Shown: positions 1,021 through 29,562 of the stretch, one piece after another | Position numbering within the stretch: position 1 is the first letter of the stretch | Layout: each line of letters begins with the position of its first letter | From: Acidobacteriota bacterium | GTDB taxonomy: Bacteria > Acidobacteriota > Aminicenantia > UBA2199 | Assembly: GCA_022711715.1 (NCBI GenBank) | Contig: JAKLEC010000014.1 | Location: forward strand, 1-36,380 | Reading direction: 5' to 3' | DNA: 36,380 nt | Program-made: the position numbers and the translations under genes | The notes under the pieces: generated by a model | Database searches by the model: none | What the model was told of the DNA's origin: nothing | Seen by the model: only the letters and a program-made list of their open reading frames with translations

Positions 1021-3201
1021 TTATTTGAATCTCCAGAGATAGCTGGCCTTGAAGAACAGGCTGTTCTTCATGTTGATCAGCCGCCCGTCGCGCACCTGCC
1101 ACTCGTTGTCGCGCCACTCCCGCCCCTGAAAGGACGAGCCGTAGCCCAGGTGGACGACCGTGCCCGGGATCAGGGTGAACGAGGCCAGCAGGTCGGTGAG
1201 CAGGTCATGGTCGTAGTCGTTCCAGCGCAGCGCCGCGCGCACGAAGAAGAAGCGGTTGAACTGGTAGGCGGCGGCCAGGTTGGCGATGGCCAGGGAGTAC
1301 ACCGAGGCGCCCCCTTCGGCCGGGCGCCGCCGCAGCGCGTCGTGCAGCAGCTCGAGCGACAGGCTGGCGCGGGCACCCGGCTGCAGCACGGCGGCGAAGC
1401 TCAGCGTCCGGCCGCGGGTGGGAAAGGGGACGACGGGATCGTAGTAGATGCGGTCGCCGACGTTGGCGCTGGCGCCCAGGTAGAGCCAGGTCCGCGGCTG
1501 CATCTCGGCCAGGGCGTAAAAGGCGTTGTTGCGGTAACGGCTCCACAGCCAGGCTTCGCGGCCGGCGCGGTATTCGAGGCGCAGGGCGCCGTTCCAGCGC
1601 GTGTAAAAGGTGACCCCGCCGCGCAGCACCGTGTCGTTCAGCCCGGTGGCGAAGTCGTGCAGGCGCAGGCCACGGACGAAGGGCTGAACCCGCTTCAGGA
1701 AGGCGTCGGGCCGGGGATCCTTGGGCAGCAGGTTCGGCCCCAGGAAGAACTGCAGCTGGTCGAAGTTCGTGCGCAAGAGGAACGCCGAGGCCATGGCGAA
1801 ATCCGCGCTGTAGCGCTCGTAGGCCAGCGAGGCGTCGAGCTCCGGCAAGGCGAACTGCAGCATGGCATTGAGCCCCAACCCGTTCTGGCCGGACTCGCCG
1901 GGGAGCTCCGTGCGGCTGTAGATGGCCGATGCGGTCAGGCGCAGGTTGGCAAGCAGCCGGTACTGCAGGTCGGCGCCCAGGGCGCTGTTGCGGTCGTCGC
2001 CGGCGTAGCGGCCGCTGTAGAGGAAGCCGAGCGAGTCGTCGCCGCCCAGCGCCAGCTTGAAGCGGCCGACGCCCCAGAAGGCATGGCCGCCGTCCTCGCC
2101 GGCAAGGCTTTCGTCGGCCGCCAGCACGGCGAACAGCGTCCGCCCGGCCGCGCCGCTCACCTTGGCGGCCCAGTCGGGGTCGACGATGCGCCGCGTGTAT
2201 ATCGCCGCCGACATCATGCCGCCGGAGACCAGCCCGAAGTCGATGGCGTTGGTCCCCTCCATGAAGAAGGGGCGTTTCTCGCTGTACAGGAGGGGGTAGC
2301 GGCGGTTCACCTCGACCTGGAAGGCGTCGCTCTCCACCTGGCTGAAGTCGGGGCGCAGCGTCGCCTCGGCGGTGATCGACGACGTGACGCCGTACTTCAG
2401 GGAGACGCCCAGGCGGGCGGCGGTGTCGCGCTCCCCCCAGCCGCCGCCGTCCACGCGGCCGCGGTCGCTGCTCACGGTGAAGGAGGGCAGCGCCTCGAAG
2501 GCGAACTCCTTGCGCAGTCCCCGGTACTCGACTGTAGCCATGGCGTTGAACTGCGACTCGCCCGCCTTCATCTCGGGCCAGGAGCCCATGGCGCCCAGGC
2601 GCGGGACGTTGCGCATGAAGATGATCCCCATGCGCACCCGCTCGCCGCTCTTGTAGCGCAGGCTTTCCAGGGGGATGGCGATCTCCACCGCGTAGCCTTC
2701 CGTGCCGACGCGGGCGGCGCTCTGCCACACCCAGTCGGGGGAGAGGTCGAGGTTGGAGCTGTTGACCGCCGAGGTGAGGCCGTCGGTCTGGCAGCCGCTG
2801 GGGTTGACGTAATACTCGAAGCTGGACTGGCGGTTGTCGAGGGGGTCGAGGATGACGCCGATCCAATCGTCGCGGCTGCTGGCGTCCCGCTTGGCGATGG
2901 AGGTCTTGATCCCGCCCGGCTGGTCGTCGTGGCACAGGAAGGCGAAATAGAGATGACGCGGCGAGTAGGCGACCCAGATGTCGGTGGCGACGCCCAGCCT
3001 CCTGCCGAGCATCGGGCTGAAGGTGATGAACTCGCCGGTCAGCGGCGGCCGCTGCCACGCCGCGTCGTCCAGGACGCCGTCGATCGCCACCGGCACGTCG
3101 ACCCGGAGCGCCTCGATCGTTGCCGGCGCGGCGTCCGCGGCTGTCAGAACGCCCGACAGCAGGAGCAGAGACGGCAGCAGTACCCTTGGGTTAGATCGCA
3201 T
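1021..3201 (-). CDS. DUF5916 exported protein with N-terminal CBM9-like domain, probable outer-membrane beta-barrel
   Basis: 726 residues from ATG 3201. I preferred this start to an upstream in-frame one because it begins a clean signal peptide (MRSNPRVLLPSLLLLSGVLT, then ADAAP) and sits 6 nt after a TATAAT box. Residues ~30-220 match the carbohydrate-binding family 9-like/DOMON region (IDGVLDDAAWQ; later DDWIGVILDPLDNRQSSFEY). The rest matches DUF5916 (RPDFSQVESDAFQVEVNRRY; EKRPFFMEG). The C-terminus ends in alternating aromatic residues (LFFKASYLWRFK), like a BAM-recognised beta-signal. DUF5916 proteins of 700-900 residues are common in Bacteroidota and Acidobacteriota; their substrate is unknown. 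The upstream CARDB gene is on the same strand but separated by a long hairpin-forming repeat, so they are probably separate transcripts. Confidence 0.9.
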   Translation of the reverse strand: MRSNPRVLLPSLLLLSGVLTAADAAPATIEALRVDVPVAIDGVLDDAAWQRPPLTGEFITFSPMLGRRLGVATDIWVAYSPRHLYFAFLCHDDQPGGIKTSIAKRDASSRDDWIGVILDPLDNRQSSFEYYVNPSGCQTDGLTSAVNSSNLDLSPDWVWQSAARVGTEGYAVEIAIPLESLRYKSGERVRMGIIFMRNVPRLGAMGSWPEMKAGESQFNAMATVEYRGLRKEFAFEALPSFTVSSDRGRVDGGGWGERDTAARLGVSLKYGVTSSITAEATLRPDFSQVESDAFQVEVNRRYPLLYSEKRPFFMEGTNAIDFGLVSGGMMSAAIYTRRIVDPDWAAKVSGAAGRTLFAVLAADESLAGEDGGHAFWGVGRFKLALGGDDSLGFLYSGRYAGDDRNSALGADLQYRLLANLRLTASAIYSRTELPGESGQNGLGLNAMLQFALPELDASLAYERYSADFAMASAFLLRTNFDQLQFFLGPNLLPKDPRPDAFLKRVQPFVRGLRLHDFATGLNDTVLRGGVTFYTRWNGALRLEYRAGREAWLWSRYRNNAFYALAEMQPRTWLYLGASANVGDRIYYDPVVPFPTRGRTLSFAAVLQPGARASLSLELLHDALRRRPAEGGASVYSLAIANLAAAYQFNRFFFVRAALRWNDYDHDLLTDLLASFTLIPGTVVHLGYGSSFQGREWRDNEWQVRDGRLINMKNSLFFKASYLWRFK

Positions 3202-3207
3202 GGCAAC

Positions 3208-3213
3208 ATTATA
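3208..3213 (-). promoter_or_regulatory. -10 box TATAAT, 6 nt before the DUF5916 start (leaderless type)
   Basis: On the minus strand the sequence reads TATAAT, GTTGCC, ATG. Transcription would start at or next to the A of ATG, and there is no Shine-Dalgarno. No good -35 hexamer is visible; the expected position falls at the edge of the heptamer repeat. Confidence 0.6.
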
Positions 3214-3230
3214 ACTGAAAGGCAAACAAA

Positions 3231-3316
3231 GTGATTGGTGATTAGTAATTCGTGATTTGTAGCGGCAATAATCGGCAAATGCGATTCCAATCACGAATCA
3301 CTAATCACTAATTACT
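3231..3316. repeat. Inverted pair of heptamer arrays forming a long imperfect hairpin
   Basis: Left arm: GTGATTG, GTGATTA, GTAATTC, GTGATTT (3231-3258). Right arm: AATCACG, AATCACT, AATCACT, AATTACT (3289-3316). The arms can pair over about 27 bp with few mismatches around a ~30-nt loop. The element starts right after the stop of the CARDB gene and ends just before the DUF5916 promoter, a good position for a terminator or insulator. Confidence 0.8.
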
Positions 3317-3320
3317 TGTT

Positions 3321-4235
3321 TTAATGCGCCGGGATCACTTCGCTACGGGTGAGGCTGTTGTTCGCCTCGTTCAGCTCGACGATCAGGTTGGCCGGGTCGG
3401 CCACGCCGGTGCAGCGATAGGTGGTCGATGTCGGGCTGGGCGGGAAGAGGTAGCGGGTGCTGATCACCGAGCGGCTGCGGTCGGGATCGGCCGGGTCGTA
3501 GGCGAAATGGACGTCGTGGAATCCGCTCTGCTCCACCTGGGTGCCGTCGAGGTCGACGCTGTCCACCCGCGTGCCGTTGACGAAGACATCGACGCGGCCG
3601 CCGCTGCCGCGGGGGATGGCGGCCGGGCCGCGGTTGACCACGGTAACCAGCAGCCGGCACTCGGGCGGCGCGCCGGTCGGCGAACCGGTATGGGCGAAGC
3701 CGACGATCTGCAGGTCGGGAACCACCGGCCGGGTGATGCGGATGCGGCACAGGGCGACGTTGTTCTCCTCGTTGCCCTCGCGGACCGACCGCCCCGGGTC
3801 GACGACCGCGGCCAGGTAGTAGTCGCCGGCCGGCGTGTCCTCCGGGATGCGGTTGTTGCCGTTCAGGGTCACGCTGGCCTTGGCGCCGGCAGCGAGTGAA
3901 CTGACGAACTCGCGACCCCCCTGAAGCAGGACATCCTCCTGATAGGCGGAGGAATAGAGGGCATAGTCCACCGGCACCACGGCGTCGTGCGACAGGACCA
4001 GGTCGAGGGCGAACTGTCCGGCGGGCACGCCGCTTTTATTCTCCACCCAGACGGCGATGTCACTGCCCAACTCCTGGCCGGCCGTTGCCGTGCCAGGGCA
4101 CTTGATAGTGGGCGCCAGGTCTGGAAGCGGCAACGGCATCGGCTTCTTGGCCGCGGGGATGTCGGCCGCCGCCGGCAGGGCCAGGAGCGACAGGATCGCG
4201 AAAAGCGGCAGCGCGCCGCGCCGGTGCTTTTGCAT
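3321..4235 (-). CDS. Secreted protein with two CARDB domains
   Basis: 304 residues. ATG 4235 has a strong Shine-Dalgarno (AGGAGG, 5 nt before). The N-terminus is a signal peptide (ALPLFAILSLLALPAAADIP) with cleavage probably near residue 24. Two Ig-like CARDB (cell adhesion related) domains follow. The first is residues ~38-160 (PDLAPTIKCPGTATAGQELG ... EGNEENNVALCRIRI), the second ~165-300 (PDLQIVGFAHTGSP ... VELNEANNSLTR). The 'NxxNN' strand typical of CARDB ends both. These domains mediate protein-protein or carbohydrate contacts in extracellular proteins; no catalytic domain is present. Cell-surface or periplasmic location is inferred. Confidence 0.85.
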   Translation of the reverse strand: MQKHRRGALPLFAILSLLALPAAADIPAAKKPMPLPLPDLAPTIKCPGTATAGQELGSDIAVWVENKSGVPAGQFALDLVLSHDAVVPVDYALYSSAYQEDVLLQGGREFVSSLAAGAKASVTLNGNNRIPEDTPAGDYYLAAVVDPGRSVREGNEENNVALCRIRITRPVVPDLQIVGFAHTGSPTGAPPECRLLVTVVNRGPAAIPRGSGGRVDVFVNGTRVDSVDLDGTQVEQSGFHDVHFAYDPADPDRSRSVISTRYLFPPSPTSTTYRCTGVADPANLIVELNEANNSLTRSEVIPAH

Positions 4236-7118: not shown

Positions 7119-7417
7119 GTGACGCGTAACGCGTGACGCGTGACGAGTAGCAGCCATAAACGCGATCAATCGTAATTCGTGATTCGTGATTCGTGAAGGC
7201 AATCGGTAGACGGTTTACGGTATACGGTGTACGGTAAAGCCTGAACACAAAGCCCACTCGTTCAATTGCTGTTGCCGTCTACCGTCTGCCGTACACCGTC
7301 CACCAAGTTCGGAGGGTTCTCTTACAAGGAACCTTGAATGACCGTCGCCCCTTTTACCGTTGAATAGCGTCGAGTGTTTCATTCTCTAGCCCTACGCGCT
7401 GCGCCCTGCACCCTACG
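7119..7417. repeat. Cluster of five heptamer arrays between convergent genes
   Basis: Arrays in order: GTGACGC type (7119-7146); CGTAATT/CGTGATT type (7171-7198) after a 24-nt linker starting GTAGCAGCC; AATCGGT, AGACGGT, TTACGGT, ATACGGT, GTACGGT (7201-7235); CCGTCTA, CCGTCTG, CCGTACA, CCGTCCA (7275-7302), which is the inverted form of the previous array; and CCCTACG, CGCTGCG, CCCTGCA, CCCTACG (7390-7417). The last two are both followed by CCAAGTTC. They fill the 327-bp gap between the convergent genes at 5922 and 7874 and could act as a bidirectional terminator. No other feature is seen in the gap. Confidence 0.85.
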
Positions 7418-9683: not shown

Positions 9684-9797
9684 AGTGCCAGTGACAGTGT
9701 CAGTATCAGCAAGAACGATCAGCACCTGACTAGAAATCTTGAGCCACCAAGCGAATTGGCTTTCGTTACGTGGAACGCTGGACATGGAACGTGGGAC
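9684..9797 (+). repeat. Hexamer array joined to copy 2 of the ~90-bp repeat
   Basis: Hexamers AGTGCC, AGTGAC, AGTGTC, AGTATC (9684-9707) run into AGCAAGAACGATCAGCACCT and TAGAAATCTTGAG, then heptamers GTGGAAC, GCTGGAC, ATGGAAC, GTGGGAC (9770-9797). In copies 1 and 3 the same slot holds GTCGAAC-type units. Confidence 0.85.
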
Positions 9798-9820
9798 CTC
9801 GATGCTCTTCTAGTGCATCT

Positions 9821-9848
9821 TTGCATGTCTTGAGCTGTCTGCTATCAT
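9821..9848 (+). promoter_or_regulatory. Promoter of the SDR-DUF2867 gene
   Basis: TTGCAT (9821-9826), 16 nt, TATCAT (9843-9848). The -10 overlaps an upstream in-frame ATG at 9847, which would then not be transcribed; this favours the ATG at 9871. Confidence 0.5.
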
Positions 9849-11587: not shown

Positions 11588-11627
11588 TTACTCTGGATGC
11601 CCTCTCTTCAAAGCCCTAGCCCCTAAC

Positions 11628-11698
11628 TAGAAATCTTAAGCACCCGAGCGAATTGGCTTTCATTACGTCGAACGTCGAACTTCGAACGTCGAACCTTG
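11628..11698 (+). repeat. Dispersed ~90-bp repeat, copy 3
   Basis: CCTAACTAGAAATCTTAAGC, ACCCGAGCGAATTGGC, then heptamers CGTCGAA, CGTCGAA, CTTCGAA, CGTCGAA (11666-11693), identical in order to copy 1 at 974-1001. Confidence 0.85.
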
Positions 11699-11738
11699 AA
11701 GCTCTGTTAGTTCCTCTTCCCGTTCTATGTTCTATCGT

Positions 11739-19600: not shown

Positions 19601-19704
19601 TTGGGGACGGATTGTCAAAACGCAAACAAGTGACTGTCCTGCGTGCCTTCAAATGGGTGTCCCCAAAGAGTTGTCCCCATTTGCAAAAGTAGAATAGGGG
19701 ACAA
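19601..19704. repeat. GGGGACGG/GTCCCC repeat remnants
   Basis: TTGGGGACGGATTGTCAAAA (19601-19620), TGTCCCCAA (19658-19666), and an 8-bp inverted pair TTGTCCCC (19671-19678) / GGGGACAA (19697-19704). Related to the element at 28690-28900. With composite repeat 5 it fills the 366-bp gap 19380-19745; no gene seen there. Confidence 0.6.
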
Positions 19705-21066: not shown

Positions 21067-21255
21067 CTAGCGGGCGGGGTCGGGGCCGGGTTCGGGTTTT
21101 CCGGCAGCAGGCGGATCCTTCTTTTCCGGTTCTGCAGAATTGTCGGGGACGGCGTCTTCCTCTTTTTCCGGGCGGTCCTCTGGATAATCCCCGTTATAAT
21201 CCGTATAGAAAGGCCCGGGAACGAACTTGTTCACCATGCTGGAAAACAACCCCAT
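21067..21255 (-). CDS. Small proline/acid-rich protein, 62 residues
   Basis: Supported by three signals in the right order: promoter TTGATT-17-TACAAT (21322-21294), Shine-Dalgarno GGAGGT 5 nt before the ATG, and an ATG at 21255. The product starts MGLFSSMVNKFVPGPFYTDY, then NGDYPEDRPEKEEDAVPDNS, and ends in a Pro/Glu/Lys-rich tail (PPAAGKPEPGPDPAR). No membrane helix; the first ~15 residues could be amphipathic. No family recognised. The leader contains a CTGTCC/GGACAG hairpin. Confidence 0.65.
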   Translation of the reverse strand: MGLFSSMVNKFVPGPFYTDYNGDYPEDRPEKEEDAVPDNSAEPEKKDPPAAGKPEPGPDPAR

Positions 21256-25856: not shown

Positions 25857-28481
25857 CTATTGGCCGTTGCGGCCGGCAGCCATCCGGCTGCTGGCCTCCA
25901 GCAAGTCCTTTACGTCGACGTCATTGAAGCGGATGTCCAGCAGCAGGCCCTTCAGCTCGACGCTGGGCCGGCCTTTCGGGTCGCGGACGAAATCCTTCTT
26001 TTTCCGGTCATAGCGCAACGGCAGCTTGGCCGCCGGGGCGCCGTCGATGGAAAAGACCAGGTTCAGCCGGTCGTCGCGGCCGTCCAGCCTCACCTTAATC
26101 CAATTCCAGCGGAAATCGCGGATGGCCTCCTCCACCAGCGCCTGGCCGCCGGAGATCGCCTCGGGCCTGGACACGCGCAGCCGGCCGCTGTGGGTGGGGT
26201 CCGATTCGAGGCGTCCGTCGAGGAACACCGGGCGGCCGCCGGCCAGCTTCAGGGGGACGACGCCGCTCAGCCTGGCGTCGCCGCTGACGATCTCCTCGCC
26301 GGCCAGGGCGTTGAGCATCGCGGCCAGGTCGACGTCGCGGCAACGCAGGGTGACGACGGGCTCCGCCGCCCCCGGCTCCAGGCGCAGGGGATCGATGAGC
26401 ACCGTTCCGCCGCTCCAGCCGAAACGGCCCGACTCGATCTGCAGCGCCCCGGCGCCCAGGCCACGGAAGGCCACCTCGCCGTCGCGCAGGATGAGGCCCT
26501 GCCAGCGCAGCTCGGTGAAGCGGAGGCGCTGGTCCGGCGGGGTGACGAACTCGAGCCAATCGTCCAGTTGCACCGCTCCATGCAGTCCGCTCAGGGAGAG
26601 CCCGGCCGCCGCGAAGCCGAAGCCGGCGCCGGCGATATCCAGCCCGGCGCTTCCCTTCAGTCGCCTTCCGTCCGCCCGGATGCGAGCGTGCGCCTCGAGG
26701 CGCCCCCCGGCCGCAAGCCCCTTCAGGGCGGGATGAAGGGCCTCCAGCTGCGTCCCGGCCGGGATGGTCGCCGGCGGCACCCGCAACTCGGCTTCGACGC
26801 CCCAGGAACCGGCCCGCGGCGTCGCCTTGCCCGCGAAGGAGAACGCGAGGCCCGGCAGGGAGCTTCCTCCCTGGCCGGAGAAGGAAAGCCCCCGGCCCCG
26901 CGGCGCCACGACGCCGTGGATGTCGCGGCCGCCGGCACCGCCCGCCTCGATGCGGGCGATCGAAAAGCTGCCGCGCCATTCCGGCGCCCTGCCCGACAGG
27001 CTCCATGGCGACTCCCATTCGATCCCTTCCGCCAGGACGCCGACTTCCCCAGGGGCGGAGAAGCGGCCGCCGCGGACCTGAAGCACGCCTCGCGCCTGCC
27101 ACTCTCCGGCGAAGACATGCCGCAGGTCGGCCCGCATGTCCAGGGCCGCGGCCCGGCCGCGGGCGTCGGCCCATTGCCAGTCCGCCCCCTGCAGCCGCCC
27201 GGAAGCAGCCGCCCGGGCGCTGCGGCCGTCGCCGCTCACCAGGGCGTCGAGGATCAGTCTTCCGCTCAGCCTGTCCTTGCCCGCAGCCAGGATCGCGGTC
27301 CCATCGCCCCTTGCCTTAAGCGTCCAGTCGACCCGTCCCCCTTCACGCCGAGCATGGAAATCGACCGACAGGCCGTATGGCCGGGCAATGCGCAATGGCA
27401 TCCCCAGGGCATCCATGGCCCCCTCCTCCGCCATGATGCGGAAATCGCCGCGGACGCTGATGGCCGGCCAGGGGAGCGACGCATGGGCCGAGGCTTTCTC
27501 CAGCCGCAGCGGCACGGGGCGAACGAGCCGGACGCGGCGCAGTTCAAGATCCAGGTCCGGCCATCGGTTCCCCCGCATGTCCAGGTCGAAGGGTTCCGTC
27601 GCCTCCATGCCCATCCAGGCGAAACGGGCCACCCGGGCGGCGACCGCGATGTCCTGCGGTATGAATTCGGGTCCGAGGCGGAAATCGGCTTTCATGGCGG
27701 TCAGTGCCAGCCCGCCCTGGCCCGGGATCGCCATCTCGATCCCATCCTTGCCTTGAATGTCCACCCGCGCCCCGGCGAAGTGGCCCTGGCGCAGGCTGAC
27801 CTCGCCGCGCAGCTCGATGCGGCCTGCCAGGGAGGCATCCGCGGGCATCCAGCCGAGATCATGCAAACTCGGCAGGGATAGCTCCTCCGCGGCAAAGGTG
27901 ACGCGGCCGGACGCGAAATTCCTGTCGAGTCCGCCGCGCAAGCGGATCCGATTCCCCAGCACGGACAGCGAGGCCTTCACGTCGTGTCCGGAGCGGCCGC
28001 CGCGCGCCTGGGCCGAGAAAGGAATGTCCCAGGTGCCGTCCCGAAAGGGAAGCTGCAGCTTCCCTTTCTCCGCCTCGATGCTTCTCAGCTCGAACGGGTC
28101 GGCATTCCCCCGCGCATTCCCGGGCGGAACGCCAAGGCCAGGAAAGGCCAGCCGGCCGCTGCGTTTTTCCAGCCGGATGACGAAGTTGGCGAGCCGGACT
28201 CCGTTGATCTTCCTGCGCAGCAGCCCCAGCGGCGTGTAGGTCACGGCCGCGCGCTGGATCCGCAGCCAAGGAGAAGGCCGCGGGCCGCTGGAGATGTCGG
28301 CCAGCTCCAGGCGCCCCAGGCCGACATGGACCACGCGTAAGCGGAGGTCCTTCAGGCCGAGTTTCGCTGCCTGGGAGATCAGGGCGTCATGAACCAGCCG
28401 CGGCAGGGAAAAAAGGAAGAGGGCCATGGCCAGTACAACCAGGCCGCCGATGATCAGCCAGGCTTTATTCTTGCGTGTCAT
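25857..28481 (-). CDS. ydbH: YdbH-like AsmA-family inter-membrane lipid transport protein
   Basis: 874 residues, near the length of E. coli YdbH (~880). One N-terminal membrane helix (KAWLIIGGLVVLAMALFLFS), then a continuous beta-rich periplasmic region with AsmA-like repeats such as RIQRAAVTYTPLGLLRRKIN, GVRLANFVIRLEKRSG and later IESGRFGWSGGTVLIDPLRL. The C-terminal YdbH (formerly 'dicarboxylate transport') domain is clear: ISGGQALVEEAIRDFRWNWI, LVFSIDGAPAAKLPLRYD and LKGLLLDIRFNDVDVKDLL. Such proteins form a hydrophobic groove carrying phospholipids to the outer membrane. It is first in an operon with ynbE- and ydbL-like genes; GAGGAGC precedes the ATG. Confidence 0.88.
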   Translation of the reverse strand: MTRKNKAWLIIGGLVVLAMALFLFSLPRLVHDALISQAAKLGLKDLRLRVVHVGLGRLELADISSGPRPSPWLRIQRAAVTYTPLGLLRRKINGVRLANFVIRLEKRSGRLAFPGLGVPPGNARGNADPFELRSIEAEKGKLQLPFRDGTWDIPFSAQARGGRSGHDVKASLSVLGNRIRLRGGLDRNFASGRVTFAAEELSLPSLHDLGWMPADASLAGRIELRGEVSLRQGHFAGARVDIQGKDGIEMAIPGQGGLALTAMKADFRLGPEFIPQDIAVAARVARFAWMGMEATEPFDLDMRGNRWPDLDLELRRVRLVRPVPLRLEKASAHASLPWPAISVRGDFRIMAEEGAMDALGMPLRIARPYGLSVDFHARREGGRVDWTLKARGDGTAILAAGKDRLSGRLILDALVSGDGRSARAAASGRLQGADWQWADARGRAAALDMRADLRHVFAGEWQARGVLQVRGGRFSAPGEVGVLAEGIEWESPWSLSGRAPEWRGSFSIARIEAGGAGGRDIHGVVAPRGRGLSFSGQGGSSLPGLAFSFAGKATPRAGSWGVEAELRVPPATIPAGTQLEALHPALKGLAAGGRLEAHARIRADGRRLKGSAGLDIAGAGFGFAAAGLSLSGLHGAVQLDDWLEFVTPPDQRLRFTELRWQGLILRDGEVAFRGLGAGALQIESGRFGWSGGTVLIDPLRLEPGAAEPVVTLRCRDVDLAAMLNALAGEEIVSGDARLSGVVPLKLAGGRPVFLDGRLESDPTHSGRLRVSRPEAISGGQALVEEAIRDFRWNWIKVRLDGRDDRLNLVFSIDGAPAAKLPLRYDRKKKDFVRDPKGRPSVELKGLLLDIRFNDVDVKDLLEASSRMAAGRNGQ

Positions 28482-28566: not shown

Positions 28567-28689
28567 GGCTGGGGACGGTCCTTGACGATTGGACGATCGG
28601 CTCCAGGAACGGAAAAAATGACCGGGATGGCTTCCGACGATGGAGAGCGTCCCAATTCCATGCCGATAGCCGGGATCGAATCCCGAGTA

Positions 28690-28900
28690 TTGGGGACGGA
28701 CTATGAAAACATGAATCTGCAGCCTATGCGACCGGGGAAATATTGGAGACGGATGAAATATTCGCGGATACAACCGATATGTGTCAAAAATGGGTCAGCC
28801 GACCCTTCGATCCGCCATTCATCACGTTCAGGCTCGCGGTTTGGATCGATCGGAGATCAGGAAGCGTAAACGTTTTCATATTTTCATAGTCCGTCCCCAA
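28690..28900. mobile_element. 211-bp element with 20-bp perfect inverted ends (MITE/REPIN-like)
   Basis: The left end TTGGGGACGGACTATGAAAA (28690-28709) is the exact reverse complement of the right end (28881-28900). The match extends inward with one mismatch. Inside is a variant half-site TTGGAGACGGATGAAATATT (28743-28762) and no gene. No target-site duplication is evident. A related half-site with different inner sequence is at 19601. Paired GGGGAC-type ends recall REP doublets mobilised by REP-associated tyrosine transposases, but none is in the window. Confidence 0.7.
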
Positions 28901-28926: not shown

Positions 28927-29511
28927 TCATTTCCTGCGCTTGCTGCTGAACTCCATGCCCTTGTGCTCCGAGCCGTCCGCCAGCACCATGAACTGCTCGT
29001 AGCGGAACTCGTCGTTGCTGACCCAGGTGGTCCTGGCCTTGACCTGCAGCGTCCGCCCCGACACCGGATCGGGCCAGGAACCGCTTTCGCTGATCACGTT
29101 GCCCTCGCGCGTGCCCTTGGTGATGAAAAAGCTGGTGGAGGTGTTGTCGATCCAGAGGGTGTTGTATTTCTGCTCCAGGTTGTCGAAGCCGACGAGCCAG
29201 ATCCCCTCGAAGGGCTGCCCCATCATGAAGCCGCTGAAGTCCATCATCACATAGCGGCCGCCGAGCCGGGAAGCCCCCTTGAAAGCGGCCGCGCTTTTTG
29301 TCGGCGGTGCACCGGGGGCCGTCCAATAGGTGACATCGACATCCCAGTCGCCGGCGTATTTGGCCAGGAACCGGTGGTTCTCGGTCACCGCCGCGGCCTT
29401 CATGTAGGCCTCCATCGCCTTCTGCTGCTCCTGCTGCTCCTTCATGTCCTGGGCCGGCGCCGGCGCAAGGACCGCCAGGATGATCCCCGCGATTAAAAGT
29501 GCTTTTTTCAT
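28927..29511 (-). CDS. DUF1579 exported protein
   Basis: 194 residues from ATG 29511 (GAGGAG 7 nt upstream; an earlier in-frame start is weaker). Signal peptide KKALLIAGIILAVLAPAPAQ. The mature protein has the DUF1579 pattern of a single lipocalin-like barrel: FLAKYAGDWDVDVTYWTAPG, GGRYVMMDFSGFMMGQPFEG, GIWLVGFDNLEQKYNTLWID and GNVISESGSW. DUF1579 proteins are common in Acidobacteriota and Planctomycetota and have no known function. It has its own promoter, transcribed toward the repeat element. Confidence 0.9.
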   Translation of the reverse strand: MKKALLIAGIILAVLAPAPAQDMKEQQEQQKAMEAYMKAAAVTENHRFLAKYAGDWDVDVTYWTAPGAPPTKSAAAFKGASRLGGRYVMMDFSGFMMGQPFEGIWLVGFDNLEQKYNTLWIDNTSTSFFITKGTREGNVISESGSWPDPVSGRTLQVKARTTWVSNDEFRYEQFMVLADGSEHKGMEFSSKRRK

Positions 29512-29532
29512 TTTATTTCTCCTCGGTCGAAC

Positions 29533-29562
29533 ATTATAGTTCCCCGGATCGGCGAGCGTCAA
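29533..29562 (-). promoter_or_regulatory. Promoter of the DUF1579 gene
   Basis: Minus strand: TTGACG (29562-29557), 18 nt, TATAAT (29538-29533), followed by a leader with GAGGAG. Confidence 0.7.

Follow-up and report, generated by a model that had tools for sequence, protein, structure and literature searches.

A 211-bp element was identified in the window, which here denotes the whole 36,380-nucleotide stretch of DNA that was analysed. It lies between two minus-strand open reading frames, 25857-28481 and 28927-29562. Its arms (28690-28715 and 28875-28900) are complementary at 25 of 26 nucleotides (96%) and the outer 20 are perfect, in agreement with the exact 20-bp inverted ends claimed by the first-pass annotation; arithmetically, about 3e-5 perfect inverted pairs of 20-mers within 1 kb would be expected in 36 kb. 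As single-stranded DNA the element folds with -40.8 kcal/mol (z -3.82), a value equalled by none of 200 shuffles. Inspection by eye showed no target-site duplication at 28690/28900. The features at the locus and its related half-sites are as follows.

28690..28900, plus strand: whole 211-bp non-autonomous element, with left end at 28690 and right end at 28900
28690..28715, plus strand: left end, LE type, TTGGGGACGGACTATGAAAACATGAA; its continuation TGAATCTG is like TGAATTTG of the full-element LE
28692..28699, plus strand: left-end core GGGGACGG
28702..28717, plus strand: left-end tandem 8-bp boxes TATGAAAA CATGAATC, 5/8 alike in fixed register
28743..28753, plus strand: inner half-site of left-end type, decayed, TTGGAGACGGA; GACGG lies 42 nt upstream of an ATG
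28790..28858, plus strand: probable 5' remnant of a Y1 transposase gene, non-working, MGQPTLRSAIHHVQARGLDRSEI, judged by profile score and spacing
28873..28888, minus strand: right-end tandem 8-bp boxes TATGAAAA TATGAAAA, 8/8 alike
28875..28900, minus strand: right end, RE type; its continuation TATGAAAACGTT is like GTGAAAATGTT of the full-element RE
28891..28898, minus strand: right-end core GGGGACGG
28570..28596, plus strand: solo half-site of another end type, consisting of core, TC and CTTGACGA TTGGACGA, boxes 6/8 alike
19601..19628, plus strand: possible solo half-site, weak, GGGGACGGATTGT, boxes only 4/8 alike

The element is present once in its own genome (G000), a MAG of 2,090,247 bases in 138 contigs and 81.74% complete, and the 20-bp end with up to two mismatches forms one pair only in that MAG, namely that of the element itself. 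Two Y1_Tnp matches were found in the MAG, both with ends unlike those of the 211-bp element, and a transposase bearing the element's own ends was not found in this 81.74% complete assembly. One of these own-genome Y1 genes (L018) is accompanied on both sides by inverted doublets with the GGGGACGG core (744-812 and 1894-1963) of REPIN-like appearance. The half-sites that the first-pass annotation had pointed out at 28570 and 19601 are indeed present, though the core GGGGACGG taken by itself shows no excess: the window has 6 occurrences where 2.96 would be expected, 9 of 100 shuffles attaining that number, and the own genome holds 114+118 against 119+123 for a reversed control. The half-site at 28570 resembles, as judged by eye, the GGGGACGGTGCTTGACTTTGTGACTT ends of the genus, and the GGGGACGGATTGT of the one at 19601 is shared with two further end types in the genus.

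The window carries further repeats of its own. A long near-palindrome with iterated ACGGT tracts (7203-7310 and 753-791; -48 kcal/mol as RNA) matches in part (query 310-420) an interspersed repeat of many genus genomes, among the matches listed. Stretches 903-1005, 9698-9821 and 11618-11718 belong to a dispersed family of about 100 bp, 79-93% alike, with tracts such as ACGTCGAACGTCGAAC, and the dispersed pairs 7902-7995/16467-16560 and 5699-5800/19422-19522 are 75-80% alike and lie near GTTAGTGTTAGTG and GATTAGTGATTAG iterations. A perfect 26-bp palindrome, GAAAGGGAAGCTGCAGCTTCCCTTTC, is located at 28043-28068 within the YdbH-like gene 25857-28481.

Relatives of the element were sought by its end pattern (up to two mismatches), which was found in 5 of 100 genomes, the own genome included, all belonging to the same genus. 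In the sister species G005 two end pairs span 983 bp each (C206:6602-7584 and C255:19869-20851), each enclosing an ORF of 299 aa with a Y1_Tnp Pfam match above the cut-off. The NCBIfam RAYT model, with which one of these two ORFs (L009) was compared, was matched below its cut-off of 80 by L009 (62.8 bits), L017 (70.1) and L018 (69.5). Five short two-ended copies of about 100 bp occur in G006 (two) and G008 (three), i.e. in 2 of 16 genus genomes, where a copy is an alignment over most of a 114-bp query and one of the five is the query itself; G002 has a further copy with both ends, about 129 bp long and more diverged. Single ends, with no partner in the sequence inspected, were found in G005, G006, G007, G012 and G014. 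The exact 20-bp end had no match in genome_contigs (a collection that may omit near records of the host), a 16-bp end had none in viral_contigs, and the 211-bp element had none in plasmids. In view of the short and full copies together, the first-pass interpretation holds largely, though not wholly: the annotated claim of a non-autonomous member of a family is borne out. Full copies, for which the first-pass annotation had proposed a genome search, do exist as the two 983-bp elements of G005, and the element is single in its own MAG. The proposed REP-associated tyrosine transposase likewise fares in two ways, a RAYT-like Y1 gene lying between the same ends in G005 and the two Y1 genes of the own MAG having other ends.

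The two ends of the full elements can be told apart, the LE by its continuation GTGAATTTG and the RE by GTGAAAATG. The 5' end of the window element is LE-like (TGAATCTG) and its 3' end is RE-like (TGAAAACG), so that the two ends of the window element correspond, in order and orientation, to those of a full TIRtron; the comparison comprised 15 rows, with the G002 left-end row disregarded on account of wrong coordinates.

The interior of the element was compared with the gene-bearing relatives. As annotated, an internal variant half-site (TTGGAGACGG) begins at 28743. The distance from GACGG to ATG, which is 42 nt in the window copy, is 42 in 7 of 28 related elements and 42-43 in 14 of 28, these being the two commonest spacings among related full elements; the 28 rows are GACGG-core elements (44 elements with other cores were left out), three have no assigned start, one starts behind a masked stretch, and the inclusion of near relatives such as L091-L093 means that the rows are not independent. 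A profile of 16 genus transposases scored 9.4 bits on the plus-strand frame reading MGQPTLRSAIHHVQARGLDRSEI. None of 1000 dinucleotide shuffles scored as high (995 were scored; best 9.3, next 3.2), although this frame is one of six, albeit on the expected strand, and the best shuffle came within 0.1 bit. In pairwise comparison with each of three transposases, the remnant was equalled by 1-2 of 100 shuffles. The peptide alone had no Pfam or NCBIfam family match, and the best of eight comparisons of the interior DNA with full elements was equalled by 9 of 300 shuffles, which is not clearly beyond chance; the remnant therefore rests on the protein comparison together with the spacing. A plus-strand frame over 28743-28770 was also considered as the remnant and rejected (score 27 against a shuffle mean of 28.5), the remnant frame starting at 28790.

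These comparisons support a remnant of the transposase start inside the window copy, in which about 23 first codons of the gene are seemingly left. An intact Y1 (HUH, tyrosine) transposase gene is absent, and the window copy is thus not itself a full TIRtron. In its probable layout, as read from the sequence, an outer LE is followed by an inner LE that has decayed and carries the gene start, then by a large deletion and an RE. Doubled ends are also seen in other elements (L009/L035 and L038).

The transposase family was characterized from its proteins. The structure model of a relative (L090; mean pLDDT 86.3, pTM 0.66) shows a Y1 fold, with the RAYT-REP complex 4er8 as its best PDB match (E 5.2e-6, TM 0.71 by target) and IS200/IS605-type transposases next. 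A low-confidence stretch is followed by a helical C-terminal part with four helices at 225-298, and no DnaA or HTH Pfam match was found in this part among the 22 relatives scanned. In a 22-row alignment N58, H59, H61 and Y118 are invariant and Y60 is nearly so; these residues are presumably the HUH motif and the catalytic tyrosine of the family. A scan of genome_contigs with a 7-row transposase alignment returned 73 loci; those closest to the query came from MAGs with the labels Acidobacteria, Chrysiogenales, Candidatus Aminicenantes and Stahlbacteria. Four of these loci share their protein with genus loci (L089=L039, L090=L030, L096=L036, L107=L044), and because these proteins are identical, genomes of the genus are evidently labelled variously as Acidobacteria, Chrysiogenales or Candidatus Aminicenantes.

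The link between protein and end sequence was then quantified from 103 loci, of which 80 had an ORF and flanks, 44 were full-length with a clear end pair, and 42 remained once identical proteins were removed. Protein identity and end similarity showed a rank correlation of 0.63 over the 42 elements, reached by none of 2000 permutations, and of 0.585 for the 832 pairs below 60% protein identity. No transposase segment stood out as tracking the end sequence (partial correlations -0.31 to 0.20).

Taken together, the 211-bp element is, with high probability in our judgement, a non-autonomous deletion derivative of a TIRtron-type element, i.e. of a Y1/TIRYT gene between terminal inverted repeats (TIRs). 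The kind of element is already known as TIRtron/TIRYT (PMC3733652), and its transposase may belong to TnpA-Y1 subclass 2.1 (PMC6006769). TIRtrons were described as a RAYT-like Y1 transposase gene between long TIRs (Di Nocera, De Gregorio and Rocco 2013, PMC3733652); several of their TIRs share a GGGG-led motif, GGGGWSAS, the end repeats are also found singly, as dimers or clustered, and Acidobacteria are among the hosts. The elements studied here resemble them in the Y1 gene between TIRs, the GGGG-led motif, the solo end repeats and the acidobacterial hosts (PMC3733652). They differ in that the window core GGGGACGG fails GGGGWSAS, its seventh base being G and not A (PMC3733652), and in that the window copy has lost the gene. 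The motif is fitted by other genus elements with GGGGTCAG (L038, L041), and a second TIRtron clade with such GGGGTCAG ends fitting GGGGWSAS is present in the genus (L025, L038 and L041, in G006 and G015). The ends of L022, L023 and L033 read GGTGTCAG or GTGTCAG.

Most published TIRYTs fall into subclass 2.1, whose Y1 proteins are long, carry an extra domain at the C terminus and lack REPs in their vicinity (Quentin et al. 2018, PMC6006769). Protein length and flanking TIRs are similar here; however, the published C-terminal domain has similarity to Bac_DnaA_C, HTH_23 or HTH_28 (PMC6006769), Pfam matches to which are absent in the 22 relatives scanned here.

The REPIN-like character suggested by the first-pass annotation, by which the element would be a doublet of GTAG-type palindromic REPs replicated by a host-domesticated RAYT, is in our estimation improbable. 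It is compatible with the inverted pair of half-sites flanking a short spacer, with the RAYT-like transposase of the family and with the core doublets on both sides of the own-genome transposase L018. Against it, the ends are TIRtron-type terminal inverted repeats without a GTAG foot or hairpin, they also flank complete elements of 983 bp, the host genome shows no abundance of the core, and the LE and RE differ in a regular manner. The Pseudomonas REPINs of Bertels and Rainey (2011) are reportedly inverted doublets, non-autonomous, whose movement is attributed to RAYTs; the likeness lies in the non-autonomous inverted doublet, and the difference in their GTAG hairpin ends, where TIRs with tandem boxes are found here.

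An immobile intergenic feature, either a transcription terminator or the hairpin of a regulatory RNA, would account for the long stem, for the single-stranded DNA fold that beats 200 of 200 shuffles and for the position between the minus-strand ORFs 25857-28481 and 28927-29562, yet it is very unlikely, as the window has no Rfam match at gathering scores and similar ends occur elsewhere in other genomes, both with and without a transposase gene. Least likely of all is a MITE of a DDE transposon sharing the end sequence by chance: MITEs of DDE elements are alike in size and inverted ends, but the gene-bearing elements found by the end-pattern search carry a Y1 gene, and a target-site duplication is lacking to the eye.

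With regard to movement of the TIRtron-type family, the annotation had proposed looking for empty sites in relatives, and a presence/absence difference was found for a full G005 copy and none for the window copy. The G005 C206 element sits in an insert of about 1.39 kb. Each of the six aligned genomes (G012, G007, G006, G011, G015 and the own genome G000) has the corresponding flanks and lacks the insert, and a flank search found the flank pair side by side in further genomes too. The insert does not fix the borders of the element because about 400 bp besides the element lie inside it. No empty site was found for the window copy, and in G004 the right-hand DUF1579 gene is kept at 89% identity with other DNA to the left. 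A short G006 copy (C17) was considered as a clean empty-site case and set aside, its right-hand stretch being copy-free in G007 and G005 and its left flank lying elsewhere. Since no transposase of matching address was found in the host MAG, the window copy is probably immobile now.

A regularity was observed in the sequence next to the core. Among 26 elements kept as distinct (L028 and L035 in fact share an end type), self-matches of 7/8 or better at lag 8 occurred in 10 LE and 9 RE, against at most one element at each other lag from 3 to 14 and about 0.7-0.8% in shuffles. For 23 elements hand-picked for a clear core, with the box register (2 nt after the core) fixed after inspection, agreement of box 1 with box 2 within an element was 4.85/8 for LE (13 kept) and 5.08/8 for RE (12 kept), against 3.09 and 2.96 between elements; 4 and 0 of 10000 permutations, respectively, were as high.

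A fresh sample of 396 genomes and 20 more regions yielded 48 loci (47 with an ORF, two without flanks), of which 32 had clear end pairs and 19 were kept as new ends. At 7/8 or better, lag 7 was found in 5 LE and 3 RE and lag 8 in 3 LE and 2 RE. Lag 8 as the sole rule was consequently abandoned, lag 7 being in larger excess in the fresh set, and the rule was split by core type, a post hoc division. In a loose split that placed six elements in neither class, 23 ACGG-type elements matched at lag 8 (at least 6/7) in 10 LE and 13 RE, with at most 2 at other lags, and 17 TCAG-type elements matched more at lag 7 (5 LE, 4 RE) than at lag 8 (3 and 3).

A strict recount, which left the result standing, employed automatic cores and stricter removal of similar ends, and 71 of 125 were candidates: 32 GGACGG, 17 GGTCAG/TGTCAG and 6 GGGACAC, with 16 of other cores left out. 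Of 12 GGACGG ends, 5 reached at least 6/7 at lag 8 and none did at other lags from 3 to 9; their box agreement was 4.83 against 3.56 of 8, a difference reached by 4 of 10000 permutations. Seven of the 12 miss 6/7, and the rule is thus not universal. Among 11 TCAG ends lag 7 was found in 3 and lag 8 in 1, and box agreement exceeded permutation at lag 7, where 32 to 188 of 10000 permutations were as high depending on the offset; at lag 8 it did not (3080 to 3706). Three of 4 GGGACAC ends showed lag 8. These counts suggest that ends of the GGGGACGG clade are built of the core, 2 nt and two tandem element-specific 8-bp boxes, and that the box spacing in the GGTCAG-core clade is 7.

Half-sites read in the fixed register gave box agreements of 4/8 at 19601, 4/8 at 21145 and 3/8 at 27340. 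Without the fixed register the half-site at 27340 also reaches 6/8, for which reason 6/8 alone is weak.

A text term search found no tandem boxes in PMC3733652, where Figure 9 prints TIR sequences, nor in PMC6006769, and they are not announced in the titles and abstract openings of the open-licence TIRtron, TIRYT, RAYT and Y1 literature among the matches listed. Within that literature, the ACGG-core clade, the gutted two-ended copies and the tandem-box regularity are apparently undescribed.

On this basis we tentatively propose, with a confidence that stops a little short of even, that TIRtron ends are modular addresses, in which a clade-wide core (GGGGACGG here) would mark the cut and the tandem boxes would name the element. 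As both boxes change together, a single surface of the protein is expected to read each of them, possibly that of the added C-terminal domain, and Y1 transposases without hairpin substrates would find their ends as double-stranded DNA. In the TIRtron reading of the window element, the transposase would bind the ends in trans, reading the element-specific address of two tandem 8-bp boxes beside the fixed core GGGGACGG; its tyrosine may cut at or near the core, and DNA bearing two proper ends would be moved.

Overall, the window element is itself an ordinary relic. The wider meaning lies with the TIRYTs, a large Y1 group without REP hairpins, whose end recognition is left open in the text consulted of PMC3733652 and PMC6006769. 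The tandem-box rule predicts which bases name an element and which half-sites may belong to which transposase, and some of the scattered GGGGACGG half-sites may be explicable as ends of different element types. If the proposal is true, ends in this group would be found on double-stranded DNA, unlike those of the IS200/IS605 and REP enzymes.
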